Source: Opitutales bacterium
Lineage (GTDB): Bacteria; Verrucomicrobiota; Verrucomicrobiia; Opitutales; UBA2995
Assembly (NCBI GenBank): GCA_022824405.1
Contig: JAJDZZ010000051.1
Coordinates: 1-64,000, forward strand
Direction: 5' to 3'
Length of the DNA: 64,000 bases
In this document: positions 588 through 41,078 of the stretch, piece by piece
Numbering within the stretch: position 1 is the first letter of the stretch
How the letters are laid out: each line of letters begins with the position of its first letter
Program-made: the position numbers and the translations under genes
Notes under the pieces: generated by a model
Database searches by the model: none
What the model saw: only the letters and a program-made list of their open reading frames with translations
What the model was told of the DNA's origin: nothing

Positions 588-605
588 ACTGGTATGGATG
601 CCAGT
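588..605 (+). other. Small hairpin between DUF1330 and PQQ dehydrogenase genes
   Basis: ACTGG (588-592) and CCAGT (601-605) can pair around an 8-base loop, followed by CGGGGTC. There is no T-run, so it is not a convincing intrinsic terminator. The right arm and its flank (GGATGCCAGTCGGGGTC) resemble a hairpin at 41446-41460 (GGACGCCAGTCGGGTCC), which suggests a small shared element. Confidence 0.3.
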
Positions 606-687
606 CGGGGTCAGGCCTGGAAAACTGTATTTCGTTGCACTTCATACACTTTTGCAAGGCAACCGACCCTTTAAAGAATTACGAAGG

Positions 688-13246: not shown

Positions 13247-13250
13247 AGTA

Positions 13251-21257: not shown

Positions 21258-21362
21258 ATCGGTTGACTCCGCATGCTGCGTCAAGATTGCAAGCAAAGAC
21301 CCCGCAGGTAATTGCTATTGGGGATTGCCAAAATTAAAAAATTCCCCAACCTGAAGGTAGGC

Positions 21363-23267: not shown

Positions 23268-23286
23268 TAATTTCCCTCCAACCCGG

Positions 23287-25683: not shown

Positions 25684-27918
25684 TCAGTCGATATTCTGCC
25701 TCACATAAAAAAAGCGACGTGATCCCGAAAAGCTCGTGGCGGCAACCGCTCTCCCCGCCGCATCGAATTGGAGATCGGATTCGTCCACCGTCCAACTTGC
25801 AAAAGGTCCGGACATGTCATCGGAGGAAAGAAGGTCGAACTTTGCCAGTGGTTCACCCCCATCAATGGTGAGAGAAATGTCCCCTTCCGCTTTCCTGACC
25901 GATGTTATCCGGAATCCGCCGGGAGATTTGGGGCTCAGGTTTTGGCTGAAGACAAATGATCGAAGGCTCACACTGCTGATGTAACCGCCACTATCCGGGA
26001 AAGTCACCGAAACAAGGTTGTCCTCCTCGAGAACCGAATATGGCACGGGAATGTCGAGCTGTCCAAAGAACAGTTCCCGGTCATCCCCTTCGTGTCCCAT
26101 GAAGTCGGTCGGCACCTCCAGTGCGGTTCCATTGAAGAGGATGGTGGGTTGTTTGGATCGTTCGTGTTCCCGTCCCATTCCTAATCGCAACACAGCCTCA
26201 CCAAAAGCGCCTTTGCTCACACCTTTTATTTCGAACTGCTCAGGCTGTCCCGCTCCGATCGGCTTAAAATAGCTGGTGGCGTAGCGTTTCTCTTCGGTCG
26301 ATGAGTGGTTCACATTGACCGGCGACGAAAACGTGTACTCCAGGACGGCTGTTCCTTCCGCGTCGAGTTCCACCCGGAAAACGCCACCGGGATGAGTCGT
26401 CTCGTCCAGCGCTATCAGTTCCCCATTCCAATACAGGTTCTTTTGCCGCACCGATTGGATGATGTTTCCATACTCCTCGAAAAGGTTCAGCTCTATGGTC
26501 CGCGCTTCTTCGTCGAGATTGTTCAGAATGACGTAGGCCTTGTCATCCTCCACATAGGCATCGGTCTGGATGTCCGGATCGCTCGCTTGGATTTTGATCC
26601 GAGTGCCCTTCATATCCGCCAGCAATTGCCACATCTTGACGGCCTCGGTGTAGACCCACTCCCCGGTCGGTGAAACAGGTTCATTGGCCTGGCGCATCAA
26701 CCGGCTGTAGTGAGGTACGGTTTCACTGATTCTCCCCCACTCTCCCTTACAGACAATAAAGGGAATCGTCTTCAGCATCCGGTTGGGACGGTCCATGAAG
26801 CTGATCATCATGGAGATCATCGACTTTACTTTGAGCCAGTCACGATAAGCGCTCCAGGGTTTGTTAAATAAAAAGTGGGTAGACGCTCCATACTCGGAAA
26901 TGACAAAAGGCTTCACCTCGCCCACCTTGAGAAAGCTGTAGTGCTCAATCATATCCAGCGTCGCTTCCAGATTACTTCCCTTGCGCCAGTATTGGGTGTT
27001 TCCACCTGGCCCGAAGACCGGAAAATCGTAAAAGTGCAGCGAGTAGAAATCCATGTTTTGGCCACACAGATCGATGAACAGTTTCCACTCCTCCCTCCAC
27101 TCCTGAAAGTTGTTTTCCTCCAGATCGGGAAAAGTCGTGCAGTAGCCACCGATGAGCACCTCGTCGTTGCGCTTGCGAATCTCATTGGCCACGGCGTTGT
27201 GAAATTCCCAAACCACTCTCGCCGGCGTGTTCCCATTATCCATGAGCGGCCAGTCGGGCTCGTTCATCACCTCCACCCATTTCGGCAACGGCCTGCCAAC
27301 CTGTGTATCGTTGGCATAAAAGTGATTGAGAAACTCCCCCACAAATGCCCCTGTTGCCGATCCCAACGGCTCTTCCGCCGTATCGGCCTGGGAAATCGCC
27401 CAGCCCTTGTTGGTTCGCGTGCCATCGGGCCAGAAAGTGGTGTACTGCGGAGCCATTACGTTATCGGCCCGCTCTTCCCAGGAATGGAGTAAAACCTGAT
27501 TGTGGTAGGAGTTTCTGGCATTCAAACCCTGATTGGTAATGGAGTCGTTGCTTCCAGACACCCTGGCCCACCCCGGCCTGGCCGGATCCTCACCGACATT
27601 GTTTCTCAAATGCCATGATATGTAGCCGGTATCCCGTCCGAAATAGACATCGTTTTTCACAAGAAAGTCCGTCAACAGGTCCTCGGTAAAATTTCCTTCA
27701 CCCCGATAATCATTTGTCCACTCCCGGTCGGTATGGCTTGAGTGAATGGTCATGAACTTCTTTCGATCCAGGGTCGAAATTCCGCCGACCGCATGTTTCA
27801 CATTCACATGGATATCGACTTCGATTGCCTGGGCGGAAACCTCGAGGCACCCCCCTACCAACAAGAGCGCCCAGAGAAAATAGGGAAGAGACAATGAATT
27901 TGGGGAGAGATAGCTCAC
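25684..27918 (-). CDS. GH86 glycoside hydrolase (beta-agarase/beta-porphyranase-like)
   Basis: This is an exported 744-residue endo-hydrolase of family GH86, whose known members cut agar, porphyran or related red-algal galactans. The N-terminus could be a lipoprotein signal (ALLLVGGC, C24) or be cleaved later near SAQ. The family opening VNVKHAVGGISTLDRKKF lies at 38-55. The TIM barrel has EVMNEPDW with acid/base E220 and FVISEYGAS with nucleophile E342. Two beta-sandwich regions follow, and the protein ends in a short beta-rich tail (RRFFYVRQNID) of a type common in verrucomicrobial exported proteins. Its start overlaps the sulfatase stop upstream by four bases, so the two are translationally coupled. 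The exact substrate (agar, porphyran or carrageenan-like) is not decided by sequence. Confidence 0.87.
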   Translation of the reverse strand: MSYLSPNSLSLPYFLWALLLVGGCLEVSAQAIEVDIHVNVKHAVGGISTLDRKKFMTIHSSHTDREWTNDYRGEGNFTEDLLTDFLVKNDVYFGRDTGYISWHLRNNVGEDPARPGWARVSGSNDSITNQGLNARNSYHNQVLLHSWEERADNVMAPQYTTFWPDGTRTNKGWAISQADTAEEPLGSATGAFVGEFLNHFYANDTQVGRPLPKWVEVMNEPDWPLMDNGNTPARVVWEFHNAVANEIRKRNDEVLIGGYCTTFPDLEENNFQEWREEWKLFIDLCGQNMDFYSLHFYDFPVFGPGGNTQYWRKGSNLEATLDMIEHYSFLKVGEVKPFVISEYGASTHFLFNKPWSAYRDWLKVKSMISMMISFMDRPNRMLKTIPFIVCKGEWGRISETVPHYSRLMRQANEPVSPTGEWVYTEAVKMWQLLADMKGTRIKIQASDPDIQTDAYVEDDKAYVILNNLDEEARTIELNLFEEYGNIIQSVRQKNLYWNGELIALDETTHPGGVFRVELDAEGTAVLEYTFSSPVNVNHSSTEEKRYATSYFKPIGAGQPEQFEIKGVSKGAFGEAVLRLGMGREHERSKQPTILFNGTALEVPTDFMGHEGDDRELFFGQLDIPVPYSVLEEDNLVSVTFPDSGGYISSVSLRSFVFSQNLSPKSPGGFRITSVRKAEGDISLTIDGGEPLAKFDLLSSDDMSGPFASWTVDESDLQFDAAGRAVAATSFSGSRRFFYVRQNID

Positions 27919-29666
27919 AGTTTTTCCACTCGTCCGTAGAATGCGCCGGCCAATTTCTCTCCGGTTTTATCGTGAAACCATCCCTGCAAGGTGTGCCTGC
28001 CAGCCTCGATTTCGATATGCAATTCAACGTCTGTGCCGCCGGGATTGGCCTGCGCCACAATCGGTGCTCCCCCATCGATACTTAAACTTCCCGCGACGAT
28101 GGGAAAGGCCCGTCCCGGGTCAATGGGGATACCTCCAATCGTGGTGGCAGGACCTTTATCGGTCAGTGATCGGTTCATGTGAAAGGGCCAGCGACTGAGT
28201 TGGACTTTGTATTTGCCAGCTTTTTCAGCCTCGATCTGCCAGATCCCTCCCATGGAATTTCCTCCGGCCACCCGCCTCTGATTCTCGAAGTCCACTTCCA
28301 CCCAATTGTTGCAGGTAAGGTCGGTGTAGGGCTCGAAGTCGTGCCCGATAACGACGGGCTCTACCACCTCGATGGAATCTTCGATCGAAGCCCAGTAATC
28401 GTCATAGTGGGCTTTCAGCTCCGCCGTGATCTGAGGGAATTGTGAGGATACATCGTTTTCCTGCCCCGGGTCCCGGTTGATATCGTACAACTCCCCTTCT
28501 CCGTTTAAGCGCCAGTGATCCCATACCACGCAGCTTCGGTAGTATTTCGTTGGCCGGTGCCTGCTGCCAAATTGAACGATGAGTTTGCGATCTCCGAAGG
28601 ATCCCTCGGGGTTGCTGAGCGCTTCCTTCAAACTGAGGCCGTCGAAGGCGAAGGCGGTCTGCGGAAGTTTGAAATCGAACAGGTCCACAAACGTCGGCAG
28701 CAAATCGGTGATGTGGGAGGCGTAGTCGATTGTGCGGGGCGCTCCGAAATTGCCGCTCGGCCAGCGGATAAAACAGATCGCACGATGCCCTCCTTCATAT
28801 CCGCTGCCCTTTTTCCCGCGCATCCCAGCGTTGTAAATCCGTTCGCCTCGCGAGGTGCCGTTATCGTTCATGTAAACAATCAGGGTATCGTCGCGAATTT
28901 TCTTTTCCATGAGCCATTTATCCAGGCGGGCGTAGTTCTGGTCGATATTGCTGATAAGTCCAAAGAAATGGGCCACCAGCGGATCATCCACCTTGTCCTT
29001 GTACTTGGCGAAATCCTTCTCCAAGGAATGAAATGGGCTGTGGGGGGTATTCAAAGCGATATAGGTGAAGAAGGGACGTTCCGTTTCAATCTGCTCATCC
29101 ATCCATTCCATTGCCTTGTCGAACCAGAGATTCGCGCAAAACCGATCCGAGTACTTGACCTCCATTTCATCGAGGTAACGCGTATAGTAATAATCGTTGT
29201 CGTATTCGATTTCCGAGGCCAGGCCCCAACCCTTGTGCCAGACCACGCGCTCAAAACCGCGGTCCATGGGGCGATGCGGGTAGGTATCGCCCAAATGCCA
29301 TTTTCCAAACAATCCGGTGGCGTAGCCATTGGCCGCAAAAACTTCGGGCATGGTTACGACATCGCGGCGCATGAGGTTTCGGCCGGCCGGCACCATGCTT
29401 GCCTTGTTGCGCAAAGCGTACAAACCGGTCATCAACTCCCCGCGGGACGGGGTACATACCGGAGCCACGTGAAAATTACTGAAGCGAATGCTCTCCCCGT
29501 GCAATTTGTCCAGGTTGGGAGTTTGCAATATCGGATTCCCGTGTACCGACAAATCTCCGTATCCCTGGTCATCGGTAAAAATTACAATGACGTTAGGCCT
29601 TTCGGCTTGGGCCGGCGCGACCAGCCCGAACAATCCCAATAGAATAACCCCTAATGTCCGCCTCAT
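27915..29666 (-). CDS. Secreted sulfatase, coupled to GH86
   Basis: The product is 583 residues from the ATG at 29666, which sits behind AAGGAG; an ATG five codons upstream overlaps that ribosome binding site. A signal peptide (RTLGVILLGLFGLVAPAQA) precedes PNVIVIFTDDQGYGDLSVHGN. The catalytic motif is CTPSR at 71-75 (C71 to formylglycine). LFGKWHLGDTYPHRPMDRGF and YIALNTPHSPFHS are sulfatase core blocks; YMNDNGTSRGERIYNAGMRGKKG is the C-terminal metal/sulfate site. An extra C-terminal beta domain (about residues 430-583, with GKYKVQLSRWP and HTLQGWFHDKTGEKLAG) resembles a carbohydrate-associated module. The four-base overlap with GH86 suggests coordinated desulfation and chain cutting. Confidence 0.92.
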   Translation of the reverse strand: MRRTLGVILLGLFGLVAPAQAERPNVIVIFTDDQGYGDLSVHGNPILQTPNLDKLHGESIRFSNFHVAPVCTPSRGELMTGLYALRNKASMVPAGRNLMRRDVVTMPEVFAANGYATGLFGKWHLGDTYPHRPMDRGFERVVWHKGWGLASEIEYDNDYYYTRYLDEMEVKYSDRFCANLWFDKAMEWMDEQIETERPFFTYIALNTPHSPFHSLEKDFAKYKDKVDDPLVAHFFGLISNIDQNYARLDKWLMEKKIRDDTLIVYMNDNGTSRGERIYNAGMRGKKGSGYEGGHRAICFIRWPSGNFGAPRTIDYASHITDLLPTFVDLFDFKLPQTAFAFDGLSLKEALSNPEGSFGDRKLIVQFGSRHRPTKYYRSCVVWDHWRLNGEGELYDINRDPGQENDVSSQFPQITAELKAHYDDYWASIEDSIEVVEPVVIGHDFEPYTDLTCNNWVEVDFENQRRVAGGNSMGGIWQIEAEKAGKYKVQLSRWPFHMNRSLTDKGPATTIGGIPIDPGRAFPIVAGSLSIDGGAPIVAQANPGGTDVELHIEIEAGRHTLQGWFHDKTGEKLAGAFYGRVEKL

Positions 29667-29704
29667 AACAACTCCTTCCATTCTTTTAATTCATTCTGGA
29701 AAAA

Positions 29705-31378
29705 CTATTTCTCAGCCGCCTCAGCCTTCTTTCGCGCCATGACGTGGGCTCTGAATTCCTTGGCGATATCCCAAGGTATCACACCACAGCGATCGGCCCA
29801 TTGACGGTAGGCTTTTTGCAAGCGTAGAGCGACTTCCGGATGCTTTTCCACCAAATCGTCGCTCTCACTGCGATCCATATCCAAGTCATAGAGTTCCCAC
29901 GGTTTATTGTAGTAGGATACCAGTTTCCATTTTCCATGCCGGGCGATGCGGTTTCCTTCGTGCTCTACGAATATGGGATCGGTGTGGATGGGATCCGGAC
30001 TGCCTCTCAGGGCATCGACCAAACTAATGCCATCCATCTGGGGGATCGATTTCCCTTGGATATGAGTTGGCCGGGCAGCCCTGGCCAACTCCATGCAGGT
30101 TGCCACAATATCCGGAAGGTAGCCGAAGTGGGAAATAATGCGGTCGGGGGAGTTGGGGGTAATTCCATCGGGCCAGTGTACGATCATAGGGGTTTGCACC
30201 CCGCCCTGATGGGTAAAGTGCTTGTATTCCCGAAAGGGCGTATTGGACAGGGTGGCCCAGCCCCTTCCGTATTTCCATCCGCCCTTCCCGTACTGACCCA
30301 GATCCTCGAACTCGAATTGTCCAAACGGCCCCGATTCCGCTTCCCCTCCGTTGTCGGATAAGAAGAAAATCAAGGTATTGTCCAGGTGCCGCGATTGCTC
30401 CAGGAAATGCAACAACTTGCCGATGTTCCGGTCAACGCGGTCAATCATGGCGGCATAGGTCGCCATGATGGCGTCCATTTCGTTCTGTTTTTGAGGACTC
30501 AAGGTATGCCAGGCCGGCACCTTTTGAGGTCGGGGAGCCAACCGGGTATCGGATGGGACCAGGCCCATCTCCTTTTGCTTCTGCAGCCGCTTTTCCCGCA
30601 GGACGTCCCATCCGTCCATAAAACGTCCCCGGTACCTCTCAAAGTCTTCCGGCATACATTGCATGGGGAAATGCGGAGCATTGTAGGACAAATAGAGAAA
30701 GAAGGGGGCCTCAGCGCGTTCCTTCAAGTGGTCGGACAGGAAATCGATGGCCTCCTCGGAAATGGCGTCCGTCAGGTAGTAGCGTTCCCCGCCAGCCGAA
30801 ATGGGGACATTGCCCCGGAATAAATTGGTCGGCTCGAAGTAGTCGGAAGTGCCGGCCAAATGGCCGTAAAACCGATCGAAGCCCCGCTGGATAGGCCAGG
30901 TCTCGGGTCGATCGGAAGCCAGGTGCCACTTCCCGGCCAGGTAAGTGCCGTATCCCGCCCGTCGCAGCATCTCGGGCAGGGTGGGAACAGCCGCATCCAG
31001 CCACCCCTGATAAGAAGAAGGTATCCCGGCGCGATCTTCCTGGGAAAGGGCGAAGACCCCACGCATTTTGCCGGTGGCAACCTGCTCCACGTTGCGGACA
31101 GGCAAGACCATGTGGCCCACCCCAACCTGATGGGGATGCAGTCCGGTCATTAACGTTGCCCGCGTAGGACAACACCGCGCCCCGTTATAAAACTGGTTGA
31201 ATCGCACTCCATTCCGGGCCAGCCGGTCGATATTCGGGGTTTCCACCATGCCCCCGTAACATCCGATATTGGACCATCCCATATCGTCGACGAGAACGAG
31301 GATGATGTTGGGACGCTCCGCTGTTGCCGGCGAAATCGCACAGACCAATACCACTAACCATCCAATCATCTGCTTCAT
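29705..31378 (-). CDS. Secreted arylsulfatase-type sulfatase
   Basis: The 557-residue enzyme resembles the bacterial arylsulfatase A/B group. A signal peptide ends near residue 20 (AISPATA). PNIILVLVDDMGWSNIGCYGG gives the metal site, and CCPTR at 69-73 the formylglycine motif with C69 modified. LAGKWHLASDRPETWPIQRGF, YLSYNAPHFPMQ and FLSDNGGEAESGPFG follow in family order. It lies 38 bases upstream of the coupled sulfatase-GH86 pair, on the same strand. It is the third sulfatase type in the locus; each probably removes a different sulfate group. Confidence 0.93.
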   Translation of the reverse strand: MKQMIGWLVVLVCAISPATAERPNIILVLVDDMGWSNIGCYGGMVETPNIDRLARNGVRFNQFYNGARCCPTRATLMTGLHPHQVGVGHMVLPVRNVEQVATGKMRGVFALSQEDRAGIPSSYQGWLDAAVPTLPEMLRRAGYGTYLAGKWHLASDRPETWPIQRGFDRFYGHLAGTSDYFEPTNLFRGNVPISAGGERYYLTDAISEEAIDFLSDHLKERAEAPFFLYLSYNAPHFPMQCMPEDFERYRGRFMDGWDVLREKRLQKQKEMGLVPSDTRLAPRPQKVPAWHTLSPQKQNEMDAIMATYAAMIDRVDRNIGKLLHFLEQSRHLDNTLIFFLSDNGGEAESGPFGQFEFEDLGQYGKGGWKYGRGWATLSNTPFREYKHFTHQGGVQTPMIVHWPDGITPNSPDRIISHFGYLPDIVATCMELARAARPTHIQGKSIPQMDGISLVDALRGSPDPIHTDPIFVEHEGNRIARHGKWKLVSYYNKPWELYDLDMDRSESDDLVEKHPEVALRLQKAYRQWADRCGVIPWDIAKEFRAHVMARKKAEAAEK

Positions 31379-31420
31379 AGTTTTTTCCTCAACTTAATCG
31401 TGATCATGATTTTGGGTCAT

Positions 31421-32554
31421 TTACTCCGTAAAGGTCTCTTCCGGCAATGGAACGATGGCGCCTCCCCGCAAGGCGGATTCATGGGCCAGGATCCCCGTAC
31501 AAGTCCAGTTGGCCGACTGTTTGGCATTGGGCCAGGGATCGCGATCATGGATGAGGGAGTCGACAAAAACGTGAGCCAGATGGGGGTGGGAACCGCCATG
31601 GCCGGCCCCCTGGGTGAAGGAAAGGTGTTCATCGCCCTCTTCCCCGCCGTAAACGCCGCCCAGGGTGAAAGGGGCAATTTCGTCCGGCAACAAGTGGCCG
31701 TAGTCAGGACATTTTACCTTCTCAGGAATTTCCGGTTCCGGTTTCTTTGCCGTGTGAACGACCAGCGGCTCCCCTTCGATGAGGGGCCATTCCACTGATT
31801 TCTTTAATCCGTAGACGTCGATGCTCTCGCGGTACTGACGGGAAACATCGAAGAGGGAACGGATAATGCGGGCGGAAAGGTCGCTGTTTCTCATTTTGAT
31901 GTGGGTCGTCTCGATGGCGAAGGGAGAATTGTAGTGGTGGTGCATCTCCTCGCGGATGGTGCCCGAGGGAAAACAGGAAACGTACTCGGCATCTTTCCGG
32001 GGCAATCCCAGAACGGGGCCCACGCAGTGGGTTGCATAATACATGGGGGGCAGGCCGGGCCAGTAACCGGGCCATCCATCCATGTCCTGCTGATGGGAAG
32101 CCTGCAGGAACTGCAATTTGCCCAAATCGCCATCTTCGTAGAGTTGCTTCATGAAGAGGAACTCGCGCGAGTAAACCACCGTTTCCATCATCATGTATTT
32201 CAGACCCGTTTGCCGGACCAGGCGGACGATTTCGAGGCAGTCTTCCACCGAGGTGGCCATGGGCACGGTGCAGGCCACGTGTTTGCCCGCCTTCAATGCC
32301 GCTATGGACTGATCGGCATGATTGGGAATCGGGGTGTTGATGTGCACGGCGTCAATTTCCTTATCCTTCAGGAGTTCATCATAGTCGGTATAGCGTTTTT
32401 CCACCCCGAACCTGTCTCCCACCTCATGCAGATCCGATTCGGTCCGCTGGCAAATGGCATACATGTTGGCCTGGGGATGCCTTTGATAGATGGGGATGAA
32501 TTCGGCGCCGAATCCGAGGCCGACAATGGCAACGTTTATGGTCTGATCACTCAT
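31421..32554 (-). CDS. Gfo/Idh/MocA family oxidoreductase (cytoplasmic)
   Basis: This is a 377-residue NAD(P)-dependent oxidoreductase without a signal peptide. The N-terminus has the Rossmann loop INVAIVGLGFGAEFIPIYQ; VHINTPIPNHADQSIAALKAGKHVACTVPMATS matches the second family motif, with TVPMA in place of the usual EKPxA, so the catalytic lysine position is altered. The C-terminal domain (HDRDPWPNAKQSANWTCTGILAHESA) is typical of dehydrogenases in this family. It is located between a sulfatase and the SGNH/dehydrogenase/cupredoxin fusion, consistent with oxidation or reduction of a released sugar. Confidence 0.87.
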   Translation of the reverse strand: MSDQTINVAIVGLGFGAEFIPIYQRHPQANMYAICQRTESDLHEVGDRFGVEKRYTDYDELLKDKEIDAVHINTPIPNHADQSIAALKAGKHVACTVPMATSVEDCLEIVRLVRQTGLKYMMMETVVYSREFLFMKQLYEDGDLGKLQFLQASHQQDMDGWPGYWPGLPPMYYATHCVGPVLGLPRKDAEYVSCFPSGTIREEMHHHYNSPFAIETTHIKMRNSDLSARIIRSLFDVSRQYRESIDVYGLKKSVEWPLIEGEPLVVHTAKKPEPEIPEKVKCPDYGHLLPDEIAPFTLGGVYGGEEGDEHLSFTQGAGHGGSHPHLAHVFVDSLIHDRDPWPNAKQSANWTCTGILAHESALRGGAIVPLPEETFTE

Positions 32555-32587
32555 AATTGTATTCTCAGCGGTTTTGAAGTCCGGGCC

Positions 32588-35500
32588 TTATTCCACGATC
32601 ATTTCACCTTTCATCATGACCCAGTGCCCCGGATAGGTGCAAATGTAGGGGTAGACTCCGGGAGTTTCCGGGGCATGAAAGCGCAATACCTCGACCTCAT
32701 TTTCGCCGAGCATACCCGTATGGTGAAGCACGGCGGGATGTTCGGGAATAAATTCCTTTTCTTCTCCACTGGGGTCCTTGGCCATTTCGTTGGCGGCCAT
32801 TCCAACCGCCTCGTTGCTACCGGGTTGAATAATTACCAGGTTGTGTGGGGTAAGATCCGGATTGGTCAAGAGCAGTCGCACCGGTTGCCCGGCCTTAACC
32901 GTGAACCTTTCCACGGTAAAAAGCATGCGCTCCGGAATGGTTGAAATCTCGATTGTGAAAATATTTTCCTGATTATCGAAATCGGAATCGGCCGCGTTTC
33001 TATTCATGAGAATACCGCCTTTATCCGGGGATTCGGCCCAGTCCCGGAGGAAACTCTCCAGTTCGGGTTGATACAATTTGAAGTCCTCCGAATCGTCCAG
33101 GTGGCGGGACAAGGCGGCCGATCCGAGAGCAGAACGCAAAGCATAGCGCAGATGGTTTCCCATGGGGCGATTCAGCGCCGGCAAAGCTGCTTGCAAGGCG
33201 TTCCGGGTACCGAGATAGCTGGCTGAAATTACGGCTTCCATACGCACGATACCGTTTTCATCGACGGCCCGCTGGCTCAGCAATCGGGTGGCCTGCTCCA
33301 AAGACACACCGTTCCTCCCCATCCCCGGTATGGAAGGAATGCCTTGCGCTCCCTGGGTGTAGCGAAGCTGGCGGGTAGCGGCGGCGCGGGCGTTGGGATT
33401 CTCACAATTCAACAACTCCACCAGCAGATCCGGTCGGCTCGTTCCGATACTGCGATACAACCACAGAGCCTCCAACTGATGGTGGCGAAAGCGTTCCCGG
33501 TCGGAATCGAGCCCGGAGACCCAATCATCCAAGGCCGCTGCCACGGCCGATGGTGAATGGTTATCCCGCAACTCTCGCTTGGTCCAGTAGCGGTAGCGGT
33601 ATTCGGGGCGTTTCAAATTGTCGAGCAGTTGCTCGATGGATGCCCCGGCGATTTTCGGCGGATCCTGCAACTCTGCTCCCTTGGGAACGATGCGCCAGAT
33701 TCGCCCGCTGGTCCGGTCGCGACGGGGGTCCCGCAAGGAGTATTGGGCATGACCTTTTACCGGGTTGTACCAGTCGCATACATACATGGCCCCGCGCGGA
33801 CCGTATCTGAGATCCACAGGAATGAAACTGAGGTTCTGGGAAAAGAGAAGGTCCGATACATATTCTTCCTGGAAGTGATCGTCCCTTTCAACCCATCGGT
33901 GGATTTCCACCCGGTTGGTCGGTTTGTAGCGTACTTTAATAAAACCGCCCTGAAGGGCCTCCGGCCACATGGGAAAATCGACGAATTCGTGACCGCAAAC
34001 CCCGGAATAGGCCGGAATATTCAAGGCTTTGGGGTGCTGGTCCGGATAGGGCGGATTGGTGGCATGAAAGGCGCTGGCGAATATCGGATGACTGGCCACG
34101 TGATGCCCCCAATCCGAAAAGGTTACCCCCCAGGGATTGGTGTTGGGGTAGCTTCCAAACGCGACCAGTCCCTGATTTTCCGGTGAATAACGAAACCAGG
34201 CCGAATTCCTGGCCCGTATCGGCCCATAGGGAGTCTCGACCTGCGAATGGTGGAAAATCGATTCGCGGAAGAGCAGATCTCCGTCCGGCGACCAGACGAA
34301 ATCGTGAATGGCATGGTGGGAATCCTCGCAGCCGAATCCGGTCAACAGCTTGCGCCGCCAATCCGCTTTTCCATCGCCATCGGTATCGCGAAGGTAGCTC
34401 AGGTGGGGTTCCTCGGATACGATGATACCATCCCGGTACAGTTCAAAAGATAGAGGGATGGACAAGTCGTCCGCCCAAACGGTGGACCGGTCGGCTTTGC
34501 CGTCCCCATCCCTGTCCTCCAGGATGACTATCTTGTCATTGGGTTCCCGGCCTGGATAAACATGCGGATAGGTAGTGGAACAACTCACCCAAAGCCGCCC
34601 TCGGGCATCCCAACGCATTGCGATGGGGCAGGAAATTTCCGGAAATTCCTCCTCGCTGGCGAAGAGGTTCACCTCAAATCGGGGATCGATGCGAAAGGCC
34701 TCCAATTCCTGAGCCGGGGTCATCCACTCGTTTGCGCCTCTCGATTCGTAAACTTCGTCCAAGGCCGGGACATTGGAATCGTCGACCGGTGTGTGGCCAA
34801 AGGATTTGCCCTGGGCGATTTCCCAAATGCGCCGGTCGCGGTTGGCCGTCATTATCTCGAGGTTCCGCATGGCGGGAAGAAAATCCAGGTAACCGTATCT
34901 TTTGTTGCGAGATCCGGTGTAGTAATAGGTGTTCAAGGGGCGATAGCGGCGAAAATATTGCCGGTTTTTGTCCACAATGGCGGCCCGCAATTCGGCGTTT
35001 TCCTGTGGGGCAGGATGGTTGAATACCTTCCGGAAAAGCACCTCGGCAAATAACCGGTAGCCGTCATCATCCAGGTGCACCCCATTGAAGGTCAGGTCGC
35101 TTCCGGGATCTTCCATATCGGCCCGCGTTTCGTCGAATACATTGGCAAATCCGACTTGGAGCTTAGCCGCGATTTCAGCCATGGCTTCCGTGTACTGCGC
35201 CAATCGCTCATTGTTCAAGTCGGCAGCAGGCACACCCGCGACGTTTTCATTGGCAATGGGGGAAATCAGGACTATCTGGGGACCGCTGATCCCATTGAAG
35301 GCCCTGGTCTGCAAATCCGACAGCCACCTTTCCAAACGCGATTTGAAGGCGCCGATCTCCCCCACCCCGGCGAAAGATTCATTGAAACCGAAGGCTGCGA
35401 AAATCACATCCACTCGCTCCCGCGCAAGGTGCTGATCGACCGTGGCAAAATTGTTCGGTCGAGGCTGCAGATCCACCTCATCAGCCGACCAGGCAAAATT

Positions 35501-35923
35501 CCGGATGACCAGTTCGTGTTTGGGATGGGCCAGGTGCAGGTGGGATTCGAAGTAGCCAAAATCCTGGGCGCGGTCCAGCAAGGTGTTTCCCATGAAAGCG
35601 ACGCGATGGCCTTTTATCAGCCGCAAGGGAAGATTGGTAACGGTCGCCATGGTTTTTTCCGCCGTGGGCGCGTCACTGGCAAAAATTCCGTATTGGGCGA
35701 GTTCCGGATCGCGGGAAGGTTCCGGATTTCCCGTTTTCACATTCTTGGCATCCCTCTTTCGGCTATTTTTGGGCGGGGTGACCGGTTGCGATGGCTGCTC
35801 TTCACGCACGACCACGGCAGCAGCAAGGGATTCCACCTGTGCCGCCCTTGGGAGATAGAAGCCCGCAAATCCCAAAATCAAGAGGAATCCAATCCCCAGG
35901 TTAACCAATTGCTTTCCCGTCAT
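32588..35923 (-). CDS. SGNH-like + TIGR02604 dehydrogenase + HEAT + cupredoxin fusion
   Basis: This 1111-residue multi-domain exported protein starts with a signal anchor (LVNLGIGFLLILGFAGFYLP) behind AAAGGTAGG. Residues 100-310 form an SGNH/GDSL-like domain (HRVAFMGNTLLDRAQDFGYF; FGFNESFAG; FNGVHLDDDGYRLF). Residues 400-800 match the PVC 'putative membrane-bound dehydrogenase' propeller (FRIDPRFEVNLFASEEEFPE, KIVILEDRDGDGKADRSTVW, DLRYGPRGAMYVCDWYNP). Residues 820-980 are HEAT-like helical repeats. The last 100 residues are a cupredoxin with H1027 (TPHN), C1095, H1100 and M1104, a type 1 copper set. In the SGNH domain the serine and catalytic aspartate positions appear changed (GNT, NGVH). 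Copper in place of a usual heme c suggests electron transfer. Confidence 0.85.
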   Translation of the reverse strand: MTGKQLVNLGIGFLLILGFAGFYLPRAAQVESLAAAVVVREEQPSQPVTPPKNSRKRDAKNVKTGNPEPSRDPELAQYGIFASDAPTAEKTMATVTNLPLRLIKGHRVAFMGNTLLDRAQDFGYFESHLHLAHPKHELVIRNFAWSADEVDLQPRPNNFATVDQHLARERVDVIFAAFGFNESFAGVGEIGAFKSRLERWLSDLQTRAFNGISGPQIVLISPIANENVAGVPAADLNNERLAQYTEAMAEIAAKLQVGFANVFDETRADMEDPGSDLTFNGVHLDDDGYRLFAEVLFRKVFNHPAPQENAELRAAIVDKNRQYFRRYRPLNTYYYTGSRNKRYGYLDFLPAMRNLEIMTANRDRRIWEIAQGKSFGHTPVDDSNVPALDEVYESRGANEWMTPAQELEAFRIDPRFEVNLFASEEEFPEISCPIAMRWDARGRLWVSCSTTYPHVYPGREPNDKIVILEDRDGDGKADRSTVWADDLSIPLSFELYRDGIIVSEEPHLSYLRDTDGDGKADWRRKLLTGFGCEDSHHAIHDFVWSPDGDLLFRESIFHHSQVETPYGPIRARNSAWFRYSPENQGLVAFGSYPNTNPWGVTFSDWGHHVASHPIFASAFHATNPPYPDQHPKALNIPAYSGVCGHEFVDFPMWPEALQGGFIKVRYKPTNRVEIHRWVERDDHFQEEYVSDLLFSQNLSFIPVDLRYGPRGAMYVCDWYNPVKGHAQYSLRDPRRDRTSGRIWRIVPKGAELQDPPKIAGASIEQLLDNLKRPEYRYRYWTKRELRDNHSPSAVAAALDDWVSGLDSDRERFRHHQLEALWLYRSIGTSRPDLLVELLNCENPNARAAATRQLRYTQGAQGIPSIPGMGRNGVSLEQATRLLSQRAVDENGIVRMEAVISASYLGTRNALQAALPALNRPMGNHLRYALRSALGSAALSRHLDDSEDFKLYQPELESFLRDWAESPDKGGILMNRNAADSDFDNQENIFTIEISTIPERMLFTVERFTVKAGQPVRLLLTNPDLTPHNLVIIQPGSNEAVGMAANEMAKDPSGEEKEFIPEHPAVLHHTGMLGENEVEVLRFHAPETPGVYPYICTYPGHWVMMKGEMIVE

Positions 35924-35991
35924 ACGATCCTACCTTTAGCTCTCGGCAAGGAGAGTAATGCCATGCGCCTCTTCCATTGCGTTTCAATTCC

Positions 35992-37197
35992 CTACCCCAG
36001 CAGCTTCATGCCAAAACCGGGAGCATCCGATACATGGAGCATTCCGTCCCGGATCGGGTAGTTTCCAAAATCGATCTCCTCGGACAAACAGGTTACGCCT
36101 TCGACCGTTACCACATTTCCGAGTCCGGCGGCCAAATGAGAAGTGATGTTGGTTTTTTGACGACTTCCCCAGGCATGAGGACTAGCCTGCACCTGCAGTT
36201 GTTTGAGCCTCGGCATCAGTTTGCGCCAAGGGGTAAAACCAAAACCCACGATATCGCTCAAATAAGCGTCCAGATGACCGGAACGGCTCAGGTCCATCAG
36301 GATGTCGTGATCCGGTTTGGCCTCCCCGTCGGCATAGAGGGTGCGGCCGAAACCGTTTGCGTCCATCCATTGCCTGAGCTTTCGCCCATCCTCAACATTC
36401 TCATGAAAGGGTTCTTCCACCCAAACAAGTGGAACATCGGACACCCCTTTGAGAAAAGCTATGGTATCTTCCAGGTTGTACATGTTGTTGGAGTCCACCA
36501 ACAGGGTAACCCCTTTGGAGGAAAATGCCCGGTGAATCTCGTTCACCACTTCAATATCTTTGGCCAGACCTTGGTCATGCGGGTACCATCGTCCGGAGCG
36601 GCCTATCTTCACTTTCAGTTGGCGGTAGCCGTAGTCATAGTCCCACTGACAATTATTGAGAATGATATCGATGTTCTTGTTTGGATTTCCCTCGTTCAGC
36701 TCATCCAGGTAAATCATGCCGCTGTAAACGGGTGAGGCTTCAGGTCCTGTTGCACCGAGCAGTTGGTAAACCGGTTTATCGAGCACCACACCCATTAAGT
36801 CGTGCAACGCGGTATCCCACCCATGCAGTGCGGGATCGAGAACCCCTCGCTCGACCGAGACGAGTTGGGAAAGATTCCTGTTAAGCAGCATTGCTATCGA
36901 CTTTTCCGAGTTGCCCGTTCCGAAACCCAAGCCCACTGCGCCCTGGTCCGTTTCCAATCTACAGGCCCTCGACACCTTGTGCTGCCCATGAAAATCGATC
37001 CGGCCATTTTTTCCGACAAACCGGGGCCAATGGTAATTTATCCGGATTACCCGGGCGTCCTCGACTACGTGCGACGCCAGAATTTCGCTGCTCTCACTGG
37101 TTGGAGGTTGCGATCCCAACCGGTAGGCGCCCATGCCGAGGGAGGCGCCCAGCCAAGCTGTGGTTTTGAGAAATTCCCTTCGCGGGGCGATCTTCAT
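35992..37197 (-). CDS. Tat-exported enolase-superfamily (mandelate racemase/muconate lactonizing-like) enzyme
   Basis: The 401-residue enzyme has a twin-arginine signal (APRREFLKTTAWLGASLGMG), unusual for this superfamily. Catalytic residues are in the MR/MLE layout: K195 and K197 (LKVKIGR), D235 and N237 (LVDSNN), E261/E262 (WVEEP), D290/E292 (YADGEA) and H341 (SPHAWGS). The metal site therefore looks intact. Possible roles are sugar-acid dehydration or cycloisomerisation. Because 3,6-anhydro-galactonate cycloisomerase of agar metabolism belongs to the enolase superfamily, that activity is an attractive guess in this GH86 locus, but the export signal argues for a periplasmic step. It lies 19 bases downstream of a sulfatase gene. 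Confidence 0.82.
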   Translation of the reverse strand: MKIAPRREFLKTTAWLGASLGMGAYRLGSQPPTSESSEILASHVVEDARVIRINYHWPRFVGKNGRIDFHGQHKVSRACRLETDQGAVGLGFGTGNSEKSIAMLLNRNLSQLVSVERGVLDPALHGWDTALHDLMGVVLDKPVYQLLGATGPEASPVYSGMIYLDELNEGNPNKNIDIILNNCQWDYDYGYRQLKVKIGRSGRWYPHDQGLAKDIEVVNEIHRAFSSKGVTLLVDSNNMYNLEDTIAFLKGVSDVPLVWVEEPFHENVEDGRKLRQWMDANGFGRTLYADGEAKPDHDILMDLSRSGHLDAYLSDIVGFGFTPWRKLMPRLKQLQVQASPHAWGSRQKTNITSHLAAGLGNVVTVEGVTCLSEEIDFGNYPIRDGMLHVSDAPGFGMKLLG

Positions 37198-37216
37198 CTG
37201 ATCGGGGTTTTCCGTC

Positions 37217-38602
37217 TTATTTATTTCGCTCAGCCACGATTTTAGCCCTTATTTCGCTCAATGACTGACTGGTGAGATAGGGTTCCCGGTGCGGTTTCAA
37301 TTCGTCACCCTGTTCCTTGGTCCAGGCCTCCAGCTCCGCCCGCAACGAGGCCAACCGGTTCCGATACTCGGGACGATAGGCCAGGTTGTTCCTTTCCAGA
37401 GGGTCCTTGTCCAATTCGAACAGCTCGAATTCCGGACGGGTTCGATAGGCCTCGATGATGGCGGCCGCTTCGGGGTCTGTTTCCGCGGCGGCATCCCATG
37501 AATCCCAATACGCTCCCCGACCATCGTTGCGGAGAATGTCGGAATGATTGGTGTGAAAGGCGTCGGGCCGCAAATTGTGGATGTATTTGAACGATCCCAG
37601 GCGGACGCTCCGAATGGGGAAAATATTGAAAACCGTATCGCCCGTGTGCGTGGTAAATATCTTGTCCCGGTGCATTTCGGACTCACCCTTCAATACCGCG
37701 GCAAACGATTTACCGTCGATATCTTCCGGGACAGTCGCGCCTGCCATATCAAGTAAGGTTGGAAGCAGGTCTACCCAACTGACCATGGCATGGGTGCGCG
37801 AGCCCGGTGCAATGTGTCCCGGCCAGGAAACGACAAGGGGCACCCGCGTCCCGCTATCGTAGAGATTCCACTTCCCCAGAGGCCACTGCCCCCCGTGATC
37901 ACTGGTAAACAGGCAAATGAAGTCGTCCCCGATATGCTTCCTGACCACCCTCAAAACCCGCCCCATTTCCGCGTCCATACGGGTAATGTCGGAAAGATAC
38001 CGGGCCCAGTGTCGACGCGTTTCGGGAGTATCGATAAAGGTTGTGGGCAGAGTGATCTTTTCAGAATCATAGATAGGCTCCTCACCCCATGGAACATGGG
38101 GACGGCGATCCCCCGCCAATATGCAGATCGGTCCTTGGCCGAGTTTACCCGAATCAAAGAGTTTCTGCAGGTCGCGGGACATGTTTTCCGGATCGCGAAA
38201 ATTAAAATCGCAACCGTCAAAGTCCCGTCTCCCATGTTGCACCTTGCCGAAGGAGGCAACCTGGTAGCCCATCGCTTTGAGGAGGGGTGGCAATAACTTG
38301 GTGCCAGGCTTCATCTGGCTGTGATTGGGATGAGCTCCGTGGCGGGCCGGCATGAGCCCGGTGAGAAGGGAGGCCCGGTTCGGACAACAGGACGGGGAGG
38401 CCACGTAGGCGTTTTCAAACACCATGCCGCTGGCGGCCAAGGCTTGCAGGGTCGGGGTTTGCACCTCCGTGGAACCATGGATGGAGGTTTCCAGGCGACC
38501 CAGGTCGTCAGATAGCAATACCACGATATGGGGACGGGAGGACGAGCAGGTCGCGTCGGCCCAGAAAAACAGGATAATGGCGATAAAGGGAAGTTTCCTC
38601 AT
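37217..38602 (-). CDS. Secreted sulfatase
   Basis: The 461-residue protein is a sulfatase of the heparan N-sulfatase-like type by gross features. Signal: RKLPFIAIILFFWADATCSS. HIVVLLSDDLGRLETSIHGS contains the metal-site aspartates, and the motif SCCPNR places the modified cysteine at C72. ICILAGDRRPHVPWGEEP and FICLFTSDHGGQWPLGKWNLYDSG are the later core blocks. The C-terminal sections (FELFELDKDPLERNNLAYRP) are standard. It lies 64 bases downstream of the TolB-like gene and 19 bases upstream of the exported enolase-superfamily gene. Confidence 0.92.
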   Translation of the reverse strand: MRKLPFIAIILFFWADATCSSSRPHIVVLLSDDLGRLETSIHGSTEVQTPTLQALAASGMVFENAYVASPSCCPNRASLLTGLMPARHGAHPNHSQMKPGTKLLPPLLKAMGYQVASFGKVQHGRRDFDGCDFNFRDPENMSRDLQKLFDSGKLGQGPICILAGDRRPHVPWGEEPIYDSEKITLPTTFIDTPETRRHWARYLSDITRMDAEMGRVLRVVRKHIGDDFICLFTSDHGGQWPLGKWNLYDSGTRVPLVVSWPGHIAPGSRTHAMVSWVDLLPTLLDMAGATVPEDIDGKSFAAVLKGESEMHRDKIFTTHTGDTVFNIFPIRSVRLGSFKYIHNLRPDAFHTNHSDILRNDGRGAYWDSWDAAAETDPEAAAIIEAYRTRPEFELFELDKDPLERNNLAYRPEYRNRLASLRAELEAWTKEQGDELKPHREPYLTSQSLSEIRAKIVAERNK

Positions 38603-38666
38603 CGTTCTTTGCTGCTGATTTCTTTAAAGATAGGACCGGTTGGAGCCGGTCGGCGGAAGCACAATT

Positions 38667-39896
38667 TCACCTCAAATACACCACGTCGGCTTGGGAAGCG
38701 CTGCCAAAACGGGTGCTGTGCAGAGGCCTTTCCTGTTTGGTGATAGCGTCGAGAATCATCAACTGCTTGAGGCCGCCCGTCCTGCGGGTGAACACGAGGT
38801 GTCGACCGTCCCTCAACCAAACCGCCTCGATGGAATCCCTTCTTCCCCGAGTGAGAATCTCGCTCTTGTTTTTCCGATAGTCCCAAAGCACGATCTGAAA
38901 GCCCTCCCGAAAACCGGCCGTGAAGGCGATTTTGTTGGGATCGACGTGATTCCAGTCCGGCTCGGCACAGTAACGGCTTATATTGGTCATGATCCGGGTC
39001 ATTTTTCCGCCCGAGGCCGACATGCGATACAGTTGGGGTCGACCGAGTAAATCCGAGGTAAAAACCAACTCCGAGCCATTCCTGTTCCAGGTGGGTGAGG
39101 ATTCGATCGAGTCGGTTTTGGTAATTCTTTTCAACCCCCCGCCCTGTGTTTTGGCCAAATACAATTCCACATTATCCGTGGCGGAAAGCGCCATGGCGAT
39201 AAACCGACCATCGGGACTGTAACGCGCCCCCGAATTGGTGCCCTTGTATGTGGCGAAAGGCACCCGCCTCGAAGTTCTCTCATCAATGATAAATATATCG
39301 GGGAATCCGCTGCGGTAATAACTGGTGTAAATGATATTCCTGCCATTGGGCGACCACCGAGGGCTCACCGCCTGAGATTTGTCGGAAGTGCGTTGCTGGA
39401 CTTCCCCAAAAAACAAATCGCTGGAATAAACTTCCTGGGCTGCGCCCCTGCGTTCGCCGATGAAAAGAAGTTTCGAGGCGAAAAATCCGTTCAATCCCGA
39501 GGTCAACTGCACAAAACGGTCGGCTGCACGAAATAAACTGTCCCGGGAATTCCTGCCCTTGACCCCGTACCGTTTCAGCACCCGTTGAGGACGGCCCGAA
39601 CTTATGACGCTCCAAACCTCCTGGGCGTTGGTCCGGTTGACCTCAAAATGAAACTCCGACCCGCTGACGTCAACTACCCGGTAGGCCCCATGCGCATCGA
39701 AACACTTCTTCAGCAAGGCGGTATCCCGGGCATTCGATGCTGCAAGGGAAATGCGGTAAATTCTTTCATCGGAGGCTTTCGTTATGACAATATCGTCCTG
39801 TTGACTCATCAGGGATGATTGCCAGCACCCCAAAACAACCAGTAGGATTAATCCTTTGCTTCGCATAAAATTTCGGAAATATCTGGAAAATAACAT
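38667..39896 (-). CDS. TolB-like beta-propeller exported protein
   Basis: This 409-residue protein has a signal peptide (LILLVVLGCWQSS) and four or more WD40-like/TolB repeats: AVSPRWSPNGRNIIYTSYYRSG, GARYSPDGRFIAMALS, SSPTWNRNGSELVFTSD, EAVWLRDGRHLVFTRR. The N-terminal part (residues 30-160) resembles the TolB D1 domain. It may be a true Tol-system TolB or a paralogue serving the adjacent locus; no tolA, tolQ, tolR or pal is in the window. ATGs at 39896 and 39866 are both possible starts. It is the first gene of the nine-gene minus-strand run and is divergent from mrp. Confidence 0.75.
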   Translation of the reverse strand: MLFSRYFRNFMRSKGLILLVVLGCWQSSLMSQQDDIVITKASDERIYRISLAASNARDTALLKKCFDAHGAYRVVDVSGSEFHFEVNRTNAQEVWSVISSGRPQRVLKRYGVKGRNSRDSLFRAADRFVQLTSGLNGFFASKLLFIGERRGAAQEVYSSDLFFGEVQQRTSDKSQAVSPRWSPNGRNIIYTSYYRSGFPDIFIIDERTSRRVPFATYKGTNSGARYSPDGRFIAMALSATDNVELYLAKTQGGGLKRITKTDSIESSPTWNRNGSELVFTSDLLGRPQLYRMSASGGKMTRIMTNISRYCAEPDWNHVDPNKIAFTAGFREGFQIVLWDYRKNKSEILTRGRRDSIEAVWLRDGRHLVFTRRTGGLKQLMILDAITKQERPLHSTRFGSASQADVVYLR

Positions 39897-39912
39897 TTGT
39901 CCACTTACTGAC

Positions 39913-39940
39913 TATAGTAAACGGCATACTTTTCAGTATG
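39913..39940. promoter_or_regulatory. Palindrome in the TolB-like/mrp divergent spacer
   Basis: The 102-base divergent region contains the perfect inverted repeat CATACT-TTTC-AGTATG (39925-39940) next to TATAGT (39913-39918), which could be a -10 element. It might be an operator for the GH86 locus, for mrp, or both. Only the symmetry is seen. Confidence 0.3.
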
Positions 39941-39998
39941 GACAATTAAAAATTGGCAATAGATTTTCTTCCCACTCCAAATCCCTCAAATCAGAATC

Positions 39999-41078
39999 AT
40001 GCCTTTGAACCCTATCATTCTTGAAGCCTTGAAGAAGGTCAAATACCCCGGATTCAGCCGAGACATCGTCTCTTTTGGATTGGTCAGAAACGCGGAACTC
40101 CGGGAAGGCAAGGCCTGGGTGCAGGTCGCAATAACCACGGCCGATCCACGCGTTCCGAGCGGGCTGAAAAGAGACATCGAACAGGTTCTGGCCCAGGCAG
40201 ATGGAATTTCGGGGTCGGAGATAGAAATAGCGGTTTCCAAACCCCAAGGCGCTCCTGACCCGGGCCCTCGGGAGGATCGGCCTCAGGAGGCGACCCGCCT
40301 GCAAGGCATCAATAAAATTGTGGCCGTGGCCAGTGGAAAGGGGGGTGTGGGAAAATCGACCTTTGCCGTAAATTTGGCTTGTGCCTTCGACACCGTTCTC
40401 TTCCAGGAACGCGGATACAGCGCGGTAGGAATCATGGATTGCGACGTCTACGGTCCCAGTATTCCCCTCATGCTCGGTCTGCGGGGCAAACCGGAAATCG
40501 AGGATGAATCCCTTCTCCCCAAGGAGAATTTCGGCATCAAAGCCATGTCCATGGGGTTGCTGATCGATCGAAACACCCCGGTGGTTTGGCGCGGCCCCAT
40601 GGTCAATAAAACCATCCAGCAATTTGCCCACAATGTGAAATGGGGAGACCTCGATATCCTCGTAGTCGATCTTCCTCCGGGCACCGGGGATGTCCAACTG
40701 TCTCTGGCACAGAATCTCCCCATCGATGGCGCCGTCATTGTAACCACCCCCCAGGAGGCCTCCGTCTCCGTGACGACGCGCGGGGCCATCATGTTTGAAA
40801 GGGTCAACATTCCTATGATCGGAGTGGCGGAAAATATGAGCTATTTCTCCAATCCGGCCAGTGGCGAACGGGATTACATCTTTGGCCAGGGCGGCGGCGA
40901 ACAAGCCGCTCAGACCCTCAATACCAACTTTTTGGGTCAAATTCCCCTGGACAGCGCCATCCGCCAGGGTGGAGATGCCGGAATACCGGTGGTGAAAGCG
41001 ACACCGGAGTCGGAGACCTCACGGTGTTTTTACGCCGTGGCGCGTAGAATTCTGCAGGTCCTCTCCTTTCCGCTCTAG
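39999..41078 (+). CDS. mrp: Mrp/NBP35-family P-loop ATPase lacking the CxxC motif
   Basis: This 359-residue protein is an ApbC/Mrp-type Fe-S carrier by overall sequence. It has an N-terminal MIP18-like domain (LEALKKVKYPGFSRDIVSFG), a linker, then the deviant Walker A VASGKGGVGKSTFAVNLA near residue 112. VDLPPGTGDVQLSLAQ and TPQEASVSVTTRGAIMF are the Walker B and following motif. At the site where Fe-S binding members have ENMSYF-x-CPHC, this protein reads ENMSYFSNPASGERDYIFG with no cysteine. It may have a different role or partner in Fe-S work. It is divergent from the TolB-like gene. Confidence 0.9.
   Translation: MPLNPIILEALKKVKYPGFSRDIVSFGLVRNAELREGKAWVQVAITTADPRVPSGLKRDIEQVLAQADGISGSEIEIAVSKPQGAPDPGPREDRPQEATRLQGINKIVAVASGKGGVGKSTFAVNLACAFDTVLFQERGYSAVGIMDCDVYGPSIPLMLGLRGKPEIEDESLLPKENFGIKAMSMGLLIDRNTPVVWRGPMVNKTIQQFAHNVKWGDLDILVVDLPPGTGDVQLSLAQNLPIDGAVIVTTPQEASVSVTTRGAIMFERVNIPMIGVAENMSYFSNPASGERDYIFGQGGGEQAAQTLNTNFLGQIPLDSAIRQGGDAGIPVVKATPESETSRCFYAVARRILQVLSFPL

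Follow-up and report, generated by a model that had tools for sequence, protein, structure and literature searches.

We describe here a protein in which an SGNH-fold domain, a six-bladed propeller of the DUF7133/TIGR02604 type, HEAT-like helical repeats and a cupredoxin follow one another in a single chain. It is encoded on the minus strand at 32588-35923 of a 64,000-nucleotide stretch of DNA (the window; contig JAJDZZ010000051.1 of Opitutales bacterium, assembly GCA_022824405.1), by an open reading frame (ORF) that starts at ATG and specifies 1111 amino acids. The cupredoxin carries conserved residues predicted to bind type 1 copper, and among the protein's relatives copper and heme domains are swapped or stacked at this one C-terminal position. 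These data support an oxidoreductase; on balance, we think it probable that the protein is an exported or membrane-anchored, one-chain enzyme of a family spread across the Planctomycetes–Verrucomicrobia–Chlamydiae (PVC) group, in which the propeller would perform catalysis and copper would provide the exit for electrons.

A four-domain chain and its family

The chain of four domains had been proposed in a first-pass annotation of the DNA, and Pfam, NCBIfam, a PDB sequence search, AlphaFold2 and Foldseek all bear it out. In the Pfam scan, Lipase_GDSL_2 matched residues 138-291 and DUF7133 matched from residue 403 onwards, while the matches to HEAT_2 (832-933) and Cupredoxin_1 (985-1098) both fell under their own cut-offs; the NCBIfam model TIGR02604 scored above its cut-off (196.1 bits as compared with 122.2). 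An AlphaFold2 model of the full protein, for which the input held 40 sequences, had a mean predicted local distance difference test score (pLDDT) of 82.8 and a predicted template modelling score (pTM) of 0.83. In this model the C-terminus folds onto auracyanin and azurin, the N-terminus onto SGNH esterases and the propeller onto sugar dehydrogenases that use pyrroloquinoline quinone (PQQ). Residues 1-30 would form a signal sequence or membrane anchor, and the protein would be exported.

Relatives were sought by scanning genomes, one for each species; 152 were confirmed and 80 kept for analysis. The kept relatives, from hosts in Verrucomicrobiota and Planctomycetota, are 54–71% identical to the window protein and cover nearly the whole chain unless a contig end cuts them; because of this, the architecture is real and not a chance pattern. 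At least 80 planctomycete or verrucomicrobial genomes, and probably about 150, encode this chain. Its preservation over its whole length at this level of identity marks an established family and rules out that the window protein is the sole one of its kind or a one-off fusion. Looking for the same architecture elsewhere, as the annotation had suggested, thus uncovered a widespread PVC family. Within the window's own phylum the distribution is nevertheless patchy: when 115 genomes, its own included, were drawn evenly, only three matched the last 200 residues at E <1e-25, and in the two besides its own the match covered the cupredoxin part only. The window's genome has 14 DUF7133 matches, some being two stretches of one protein, and each of 16 host genomes contains several SGNH–propeller relatives; both planctomycetes and verrucomicrobia have expanded sets of TIGR02604/DUF7133 proteins.

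The suspicion that the SGNH domain had lost its nucleophile and catalytic aspartate was confirmed on alignment, which revealed GNT and NxxH family-wide where an intact active site would have GDS and DxxH. The serine of block I is replaced by threonine in 67/77 members (G112 is present in 77/77, N113 in 73/77 and T114 in 67/77), and the aspartate of block V by asparagine in all (N280 in 80/80, H283 in 76/80); the asparagine of block III is kept (N181, 80/80). To judge from the alignment, these substitutions are a family trait rather than the decay of one gene, and the domain is probably inactive as an enzyme. What the alignment establishes is the loss of catalytic residues alone; the domain may in addition have become a binding module.

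Copper and heme modules at the C-terminus

In the PDB sequence search, residues 989-1110 matched auracyanin A (2aan, 3.8e-12) with the ligand columns aligned. The azurin model TIGR02695 matched under its cut-off (E 3.7e-7), and Foldseek aligned the domain with auracyanin at a TM-score of 0.84–0.86 on the target. The annotation had named H1027, C1095, H1100 and M1104 as ligands; these residue numbers are exact, and each ligand is missing from at most one relative (79/80 for each of the first three, and 79/79 for M1104). The C-terminal domain, as predicted, therefore combines the His, Cys, His and Met of a type 1 copper site with a cupredoxin fold.

The C-terminal end could be read in 79 family members, the window protein included. 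Of these, 55/79, among them the window protein, which lacks CxxCH, stop at the cupredoxin (two of the 55, L054 and L072, bear a short additional tail and could be incomplete), and in 24/79 the chain runs on into a cytochrome c, with CxxCH following the cupredoxin. The cytochrome-bearing members are mostly planctomycetes; in Planctomycetes bacterium K23_9 both domains were found by Pfam scan. On a tree built from the core alone, with the C-terminal modules removed, about five changes are needed to account for the cytochrome label.

Paralogues extend this picture. Contig 19 of the window's own genome encodes a protein (C19) with SGNH domain, propeller, HEAT repeats and cytochrome c, without a cupredoxin and with a ThuA gene beside it, and on contig 52 the SGNH domain is a separate ORF that overlaps a propeller–HEAT–cytochrome ORF. 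In a sample of 30 SGNH–propeller loci drawn from the 16 host genomes, cytochrome c stands alone at the C-terminus of C19 and of 13 further paralogues. The tree of this sample contains a cytochrome-only group of 13 rows that includes C19 (support 97/97), the window protein's own clade (100/100) and a third group that also holds cupredoxins. The cytochrome-ended L172 nests among the cupredoxin-bearing L169, L173 and L177 (100/98 and 100/99), and therefore one module has replaced the other. In L169, L172 and L173 a segment that, judged by sequence alone, resembles the PA14 type lies between the HEAT repeats and the redox domain.

The cupredoxin had been described as standing in place of the cytochrome c in which longer proteins of this type often end. 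This is true of the comparison with C19, where the same chain ends in cytochrome c, but does not describe the whole family, about a third of which carries both modules. The swapping and stacking of the two is the best evidence we have for the exit of electrons via the C-terminus: it fits such an exit, and copper storage would not readily account for it.

It also bears on the alternative that the propeller is not a redox domain at all, but a lactonase, lyase or binding propeller, with the cupredoxin acting as a copper carrier or as a structural element. Foldseek does match the propeller to SMP30/DFPase lactonases and virginiamycin B lyase as well, and the SGNH domain of the same chain is an example of a catalytic fold kept without its catalytic residues. 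However, a copper carrier does not predict that cytochrome c and cupredoxin should be exchanged, or arranged in tandem, at one place, and an axial Met together with the azurin spacing CxxxxHxxxM is typical of electron transfer. We regard this alternative as rather unlikely.

A second type of cupredoxin-tailed protein is encoded in the window's genome, on contig 48. This 984-amino-acid protein (L111, 13646-16597) joins DUF6797 to a C-terminal cupredoxin, and is close to a 1581-amino-acid protein composed of ceramidase, DUF7133 and cytochrome c.

The propeller and its cofactor

The propeller was related by hhalign to GSDH proteins, including E. coli YliI (probability 96.5, E 8e-10), and, when submitted alone to Foldseek, to PQQ-dependent pyranose, aldose and glucose dehydrogenases (6jt5, 3a9g, 6i1q, 1qbi). 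Since its profile found no relative among PDB sequences, the case for homology rests on hhalign and Foldseek. Profile and model together indicate that it is homologous to the PQQ sugar dehydrogenases of the six-bladed superfamily, namely soluble glucose dehydrogenase (sGDH), aldose sugar dehydrogenase (Asd) and AA12.

For the part played by Arg406 of sGDH, and for the way in which YliI residues are numbered relative to sGDH, we follow what is commonly known of these enzymes. What His144, Arg228, Asn229, Lys377 and Arg408 do has been described (PMC6881810; PMC6881789). The hhalign alignment places H537 at the catalytic base His144, N596 at the PQQ-binding Asn229 and K667 at Lys377. The arginines that hold PQQ in sGDH have been replaced: Arg228 by T595, just before N596 (81/81 members), and the carboxylate-binding Arg406 and Arg408 by I701 (81/81) and V703 (80/81), respectively, equivalences that derive from profile alignment and not from superposition. 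Most sampled paralogues retain Arg701, so its loss is specific. PqqC and PqqE above cut-off were missing from 27/28 family-carrying genomes, the window's own included. Because the arginine equivalents are lost and these synthesis genes missing, ordinary use of PQQ appears unlikely. Both observations count against the oxidoreductase that we favour, as do the ability of cupredoxins to serve in copper trafficking and the variation of the gene neighbourhood across relatives. Of the annotated one-polypeptide oxidoreductase with copper as electron exit, the exit is backed by the cytochrome-ended C19, and the dehydrogenase step is putative.

A conventional PQQ-dependent sugar dehydrogenase that scavenged its PQQ, and used the type 1 copper as electron acceptor, would accommodate the profile and fold homology to sGDH, Asd and AA12 and the equivalents of His144, Asn229 and Lys377. 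E. coli has Asd (yliI), yet a control search of E. coli for PqqC was empty; AA12 enzymes show variable PQQ contacts (PMC6881789); and the window itself encodes an eight-bladed PQQ-type dehydrogenase with cytochrome c. Nevertheless, the family-wide T, I and V at the arginine positions, with Arg701 kept in most paralogues, and the hosts that lack both synthesis genes make such an enzyme improbable.

Eight histidines of the propeller, H454, H536, H537, H540, H558, H608, H620 and H725, are kept in 80–81 of 81 members, and three of these (H540, H558 and H608) are missing from the cytochrome c paralogues. From the strand order in the AlphaFold2 model, all but H608 sit at blade entries or B–C loops, and would thus lie on the face where related enzymes bind their cofactor, a candidate metal site; H608, which opens a B strand, may be structural and was left out of the list of candidate metal ligands. 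It is conceivable, though we think it doubtful, that the propeller gave up quinone binding and that H454, H536, H537, H540, H558, H620 and H725 hold a metal on the top face. If true, a histidine–metal propeller would represent a metal-dependent periplasmic oxidoreductase of a new kind, one that passes electrons to type 1 copper. The notion that a cupredoxin is always paired with this special His/Ile signature was rejected, as the paralogues L159, L162 and L177 have both a cupredoxin and R701.

In the one-chain oxidoreductase that we favour, the propeller, whose fold descends from that of the six-bladed sugar dehydrogenases (sGDH/Asd/AA12), would be the catalytic domain, and would probably oxidize a carbohydrate or related periplasmic compound in a top-face pocket around H536, H537, N596 and H725, with a cofactor that is probably not conventionally bound PQQ. 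Electrons would then reach the C-terminal copper held by H1027, C1095, H1100 and M1104. This copper would hand them to a soluble acceptor or, in the majority of planctomycete relatives, to the fused cytochrome c that immediately follows it. The HEAT repeats would act as a spacer, and the SGNH domain, without nucleophile and catalytic Asp, as a binding or docking module.

A literature search, which covered few subscription papers, found no description of the SGNH–propeller–HEAT–cupredoxin architecture, no biochemistry on the window protein's own family, and one biochemical paper that names TIGR02604 (PMC5342196). In the part of that paper available to us, purified Lac161_ORF7, a protein with TIGR02604, HEAT and cytochrome c, freed glucose from lactose with a Km of 1.8 mM, from which it could be argued that TIGR02604 propellers are glycoside hydrolases that cleave beta-galactosides. 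The protein was, however, made in E. coli BL21(DE3)pLysS, the same part gives no control excluding host LacZ, and the Km quoted there for LacZ, 2.0 mM, is so near that contamination is a concern. Catalytic carboxylates are not identified in what we saw, and the three domains listed for Lac161_ORF7 include neither SGNH nor cupredoxin (PMC5342196). A hydrolase is accordingly, in our judgement, highly improbable.

The separate parts of the window protein belong to known families; what is new is the way they are combined, the swapping of copper modules for heme modules and vice versa, and the fact that the PQQ arginines are lost in hosts without PQQ synthesis. The family also offers an experimental handle, as the colour of the copper domain would report the arrival of electrons with the catalytic domain in the same chain. 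What TIGR02604 propellers oxidize, and with which cofactor, then becomes a question for spectroscopic assay via the copper domain.

Genomic context and related systems

The gene lies in a minus-strand run with small gaps (25684-40940) that includes three sulfatases, a porphyranase-like protein (BPA_C, Porphyrn_cat_1), a Gfo/Idh/MocA oxidoreductase and an enolase-superfamily protein. Together these genes suggest the breakdown of a sulfated galactan, and the run is probably a locus for this. The sulfatases are weak evidence on the substrate, because such genes are abundant in these bacteria; one is a same-strand neighbour within 200 bp in 13/80 relatives. A conserved operon was rejected, since there is no fixed neighbour and sulfatase, Gfo/Idh/MocA and ThuA alone recur. 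In 10/80 relatives ThuA is fused ahead of the SGNH domain (L050, L044, L060, L062, L063, L067, L070, L085, L090 and L093), as confirmed by Pfam for L050 (6716-10855).

Table 1. Positions in the window of the ORF, its predicted domains and key residues, and the adjoining genes.
Feature	Position	Strand	Basis
Whole ORF: SGNH, DUF7133/TIGR02604 propeller, HEAT, cupredoxin	32588-35923	minus	Pfam, NCBIfam, full-length relatives
Hydrophobic N-terminal helix, residues 1-30	35834-35923	minus	sequence; model helix 5-20; signal-like N-termini in relatives
SGNH-fold domain, residues 95-305	35009-35641	minus	Pfam PF13472; profile matches 8gld, 3mil, 2hsj; Foldseek Axe2
Block I, residues 112-114, GNT replacing GDS	35582-35590	minus	translation; alignment
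Block III, residues 181-184, NESF, Asn retained	35372-35383	minus	alignment
Block V, residues 280-283, NGVH replacing DxxH	35075-35086	minus	translation; alignment
Helical linker between SGNH domain and propeller, residues 310-370	34814-34996	minus	model helices 310-327, 348-370; many invariant residues
Six-bladed propeller, residues 403-750	33674-34717	minus	PF23500, TIGR02604; hhalign; Foldseek 6jt5, 3a9g, 6i1q, 1qbi
H537, equivalent of sGDH catalytic base His144	34313-34315	minus	hhalign column; 81/81 members
N596, equivalent of PQQ-binding Asn229	34136-34138	minus	hhalign; 81/81 members
I701, replacing Arg406 (Arg in cytochrome c paralogues)	33821-33823	minus	hhalign; 81/81 members
HEAT-like alpha-helical repeats, residues 760-965	33029-33646	minus	PF13646 E 8e-5; model helices
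Cupredoxin domain, residues 985-1111	32591-32971	minus	Pfam, NCBIfam, PDB sequence search, Foldseek
Predicted copper ligand H1027	32843-32845	minus	PDB match, family alignment, translation
Predicted copper ligand C1095	32639-32641	minus	PDB match, family alignment, translation
Predicted copper ligand H1100	32624-32626	minus	PDB match, family alignment, translation
Predicted axial copper ligand M1104	32612-32614	minus	PDB match, family alignment, translation
Gfo/Idh/MocA oxidoreductase, adjoining, 33 bp apart	31421-32554	minus	Pfam
Enolase-superfamily protein, Tat-like N-terminus, 68 bp upstream	35992-37197	minus	Pfam, NCBIfam

Other genes of the window may be recorded here. The eight-bladed protein mentioned above (598-2760, plus strand) is alcohol-dehydrogenase-like and carries cytochrome c, in a genome without PqqC/PqqE above cut-off that holds several GSDH proteins. 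Two DUF1501 and PSCyt2/PSD1 gene pairs of the PVC type (11813-15599 and 21312-24666, plus strand) lie near the sulfatase region, and a 721-amino-acid ORF (19092-21257, plus strand) has no Pfam match at E 1e-5. At 41725-43077 on the minus strand, a phosphotransferase system (PTS) EIIA domain is fused ahead of a DacZ-type diadenylate cyclase (PTS_EIIA_2 13-142, DacZ_P 163-281, DAC 312-437), an unusual pairing of a sugar-transport-type domain with cyclic di-AMP domains.

The closest known systems are informative part by part. With SGNH/GDSL hydrolases such as Axe2 and isoamyl acetate esterase, the N-terminal domain shares the fold and the block III Asn, whereas the nucleophile Ser and catalytic Asp are replaced throughout the window family. 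With the PQQ aldose and glucose dehydrogenases (sGDH, Asd/YliI, PF07995) and AA12 (CcPDH, TrAA12), the propeller shares the six-bladed fold and the equivalents of His144 and Asn229, but it lacks Arg228, Arg406 and Arg408, gave no PF07995 match in the Pfam scan, and occurs in hosts without PQQ synthesis genes. CcPDH, in which AA12 is joined to a cytochrome b, is a precedent for a propeller with a fused electron-transfer domain (PMC6881789). The cupredoxin has the fold and His-Cys-His-Met ligands of auracyanin A/B and azurin, and a CxxxxHxxxM loop as in azurin; it differs in being fused to the C-terminus of a 1111-amino-acid protein and, from azurin, in that the position preceding the first His is variable in the family (D, P, Q, A) instead of being Gly. 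Nitrous oxide reductase, a distant Foldseek match, likewise unites a propeller and a copper domain of cupredoxin fold within one polypeptide, but has seven blades, binuclear CuA and CuZ, and aligns with a root mean square deviation >25 A, and is hence a mere analogy. Finally, the TIGR02604/DUF7133 (PF23500) ‘PVC-type heme-binding CxxCH’ proteins share the whole order of propeller, HEAT repeats and C-terminal redox domain; as compared with these, the window family ends in a cupredoxin rather than CxxCH, has an SGNH domain added in front, and carries I for R701 with the extra invariant H540, H558 and H608.

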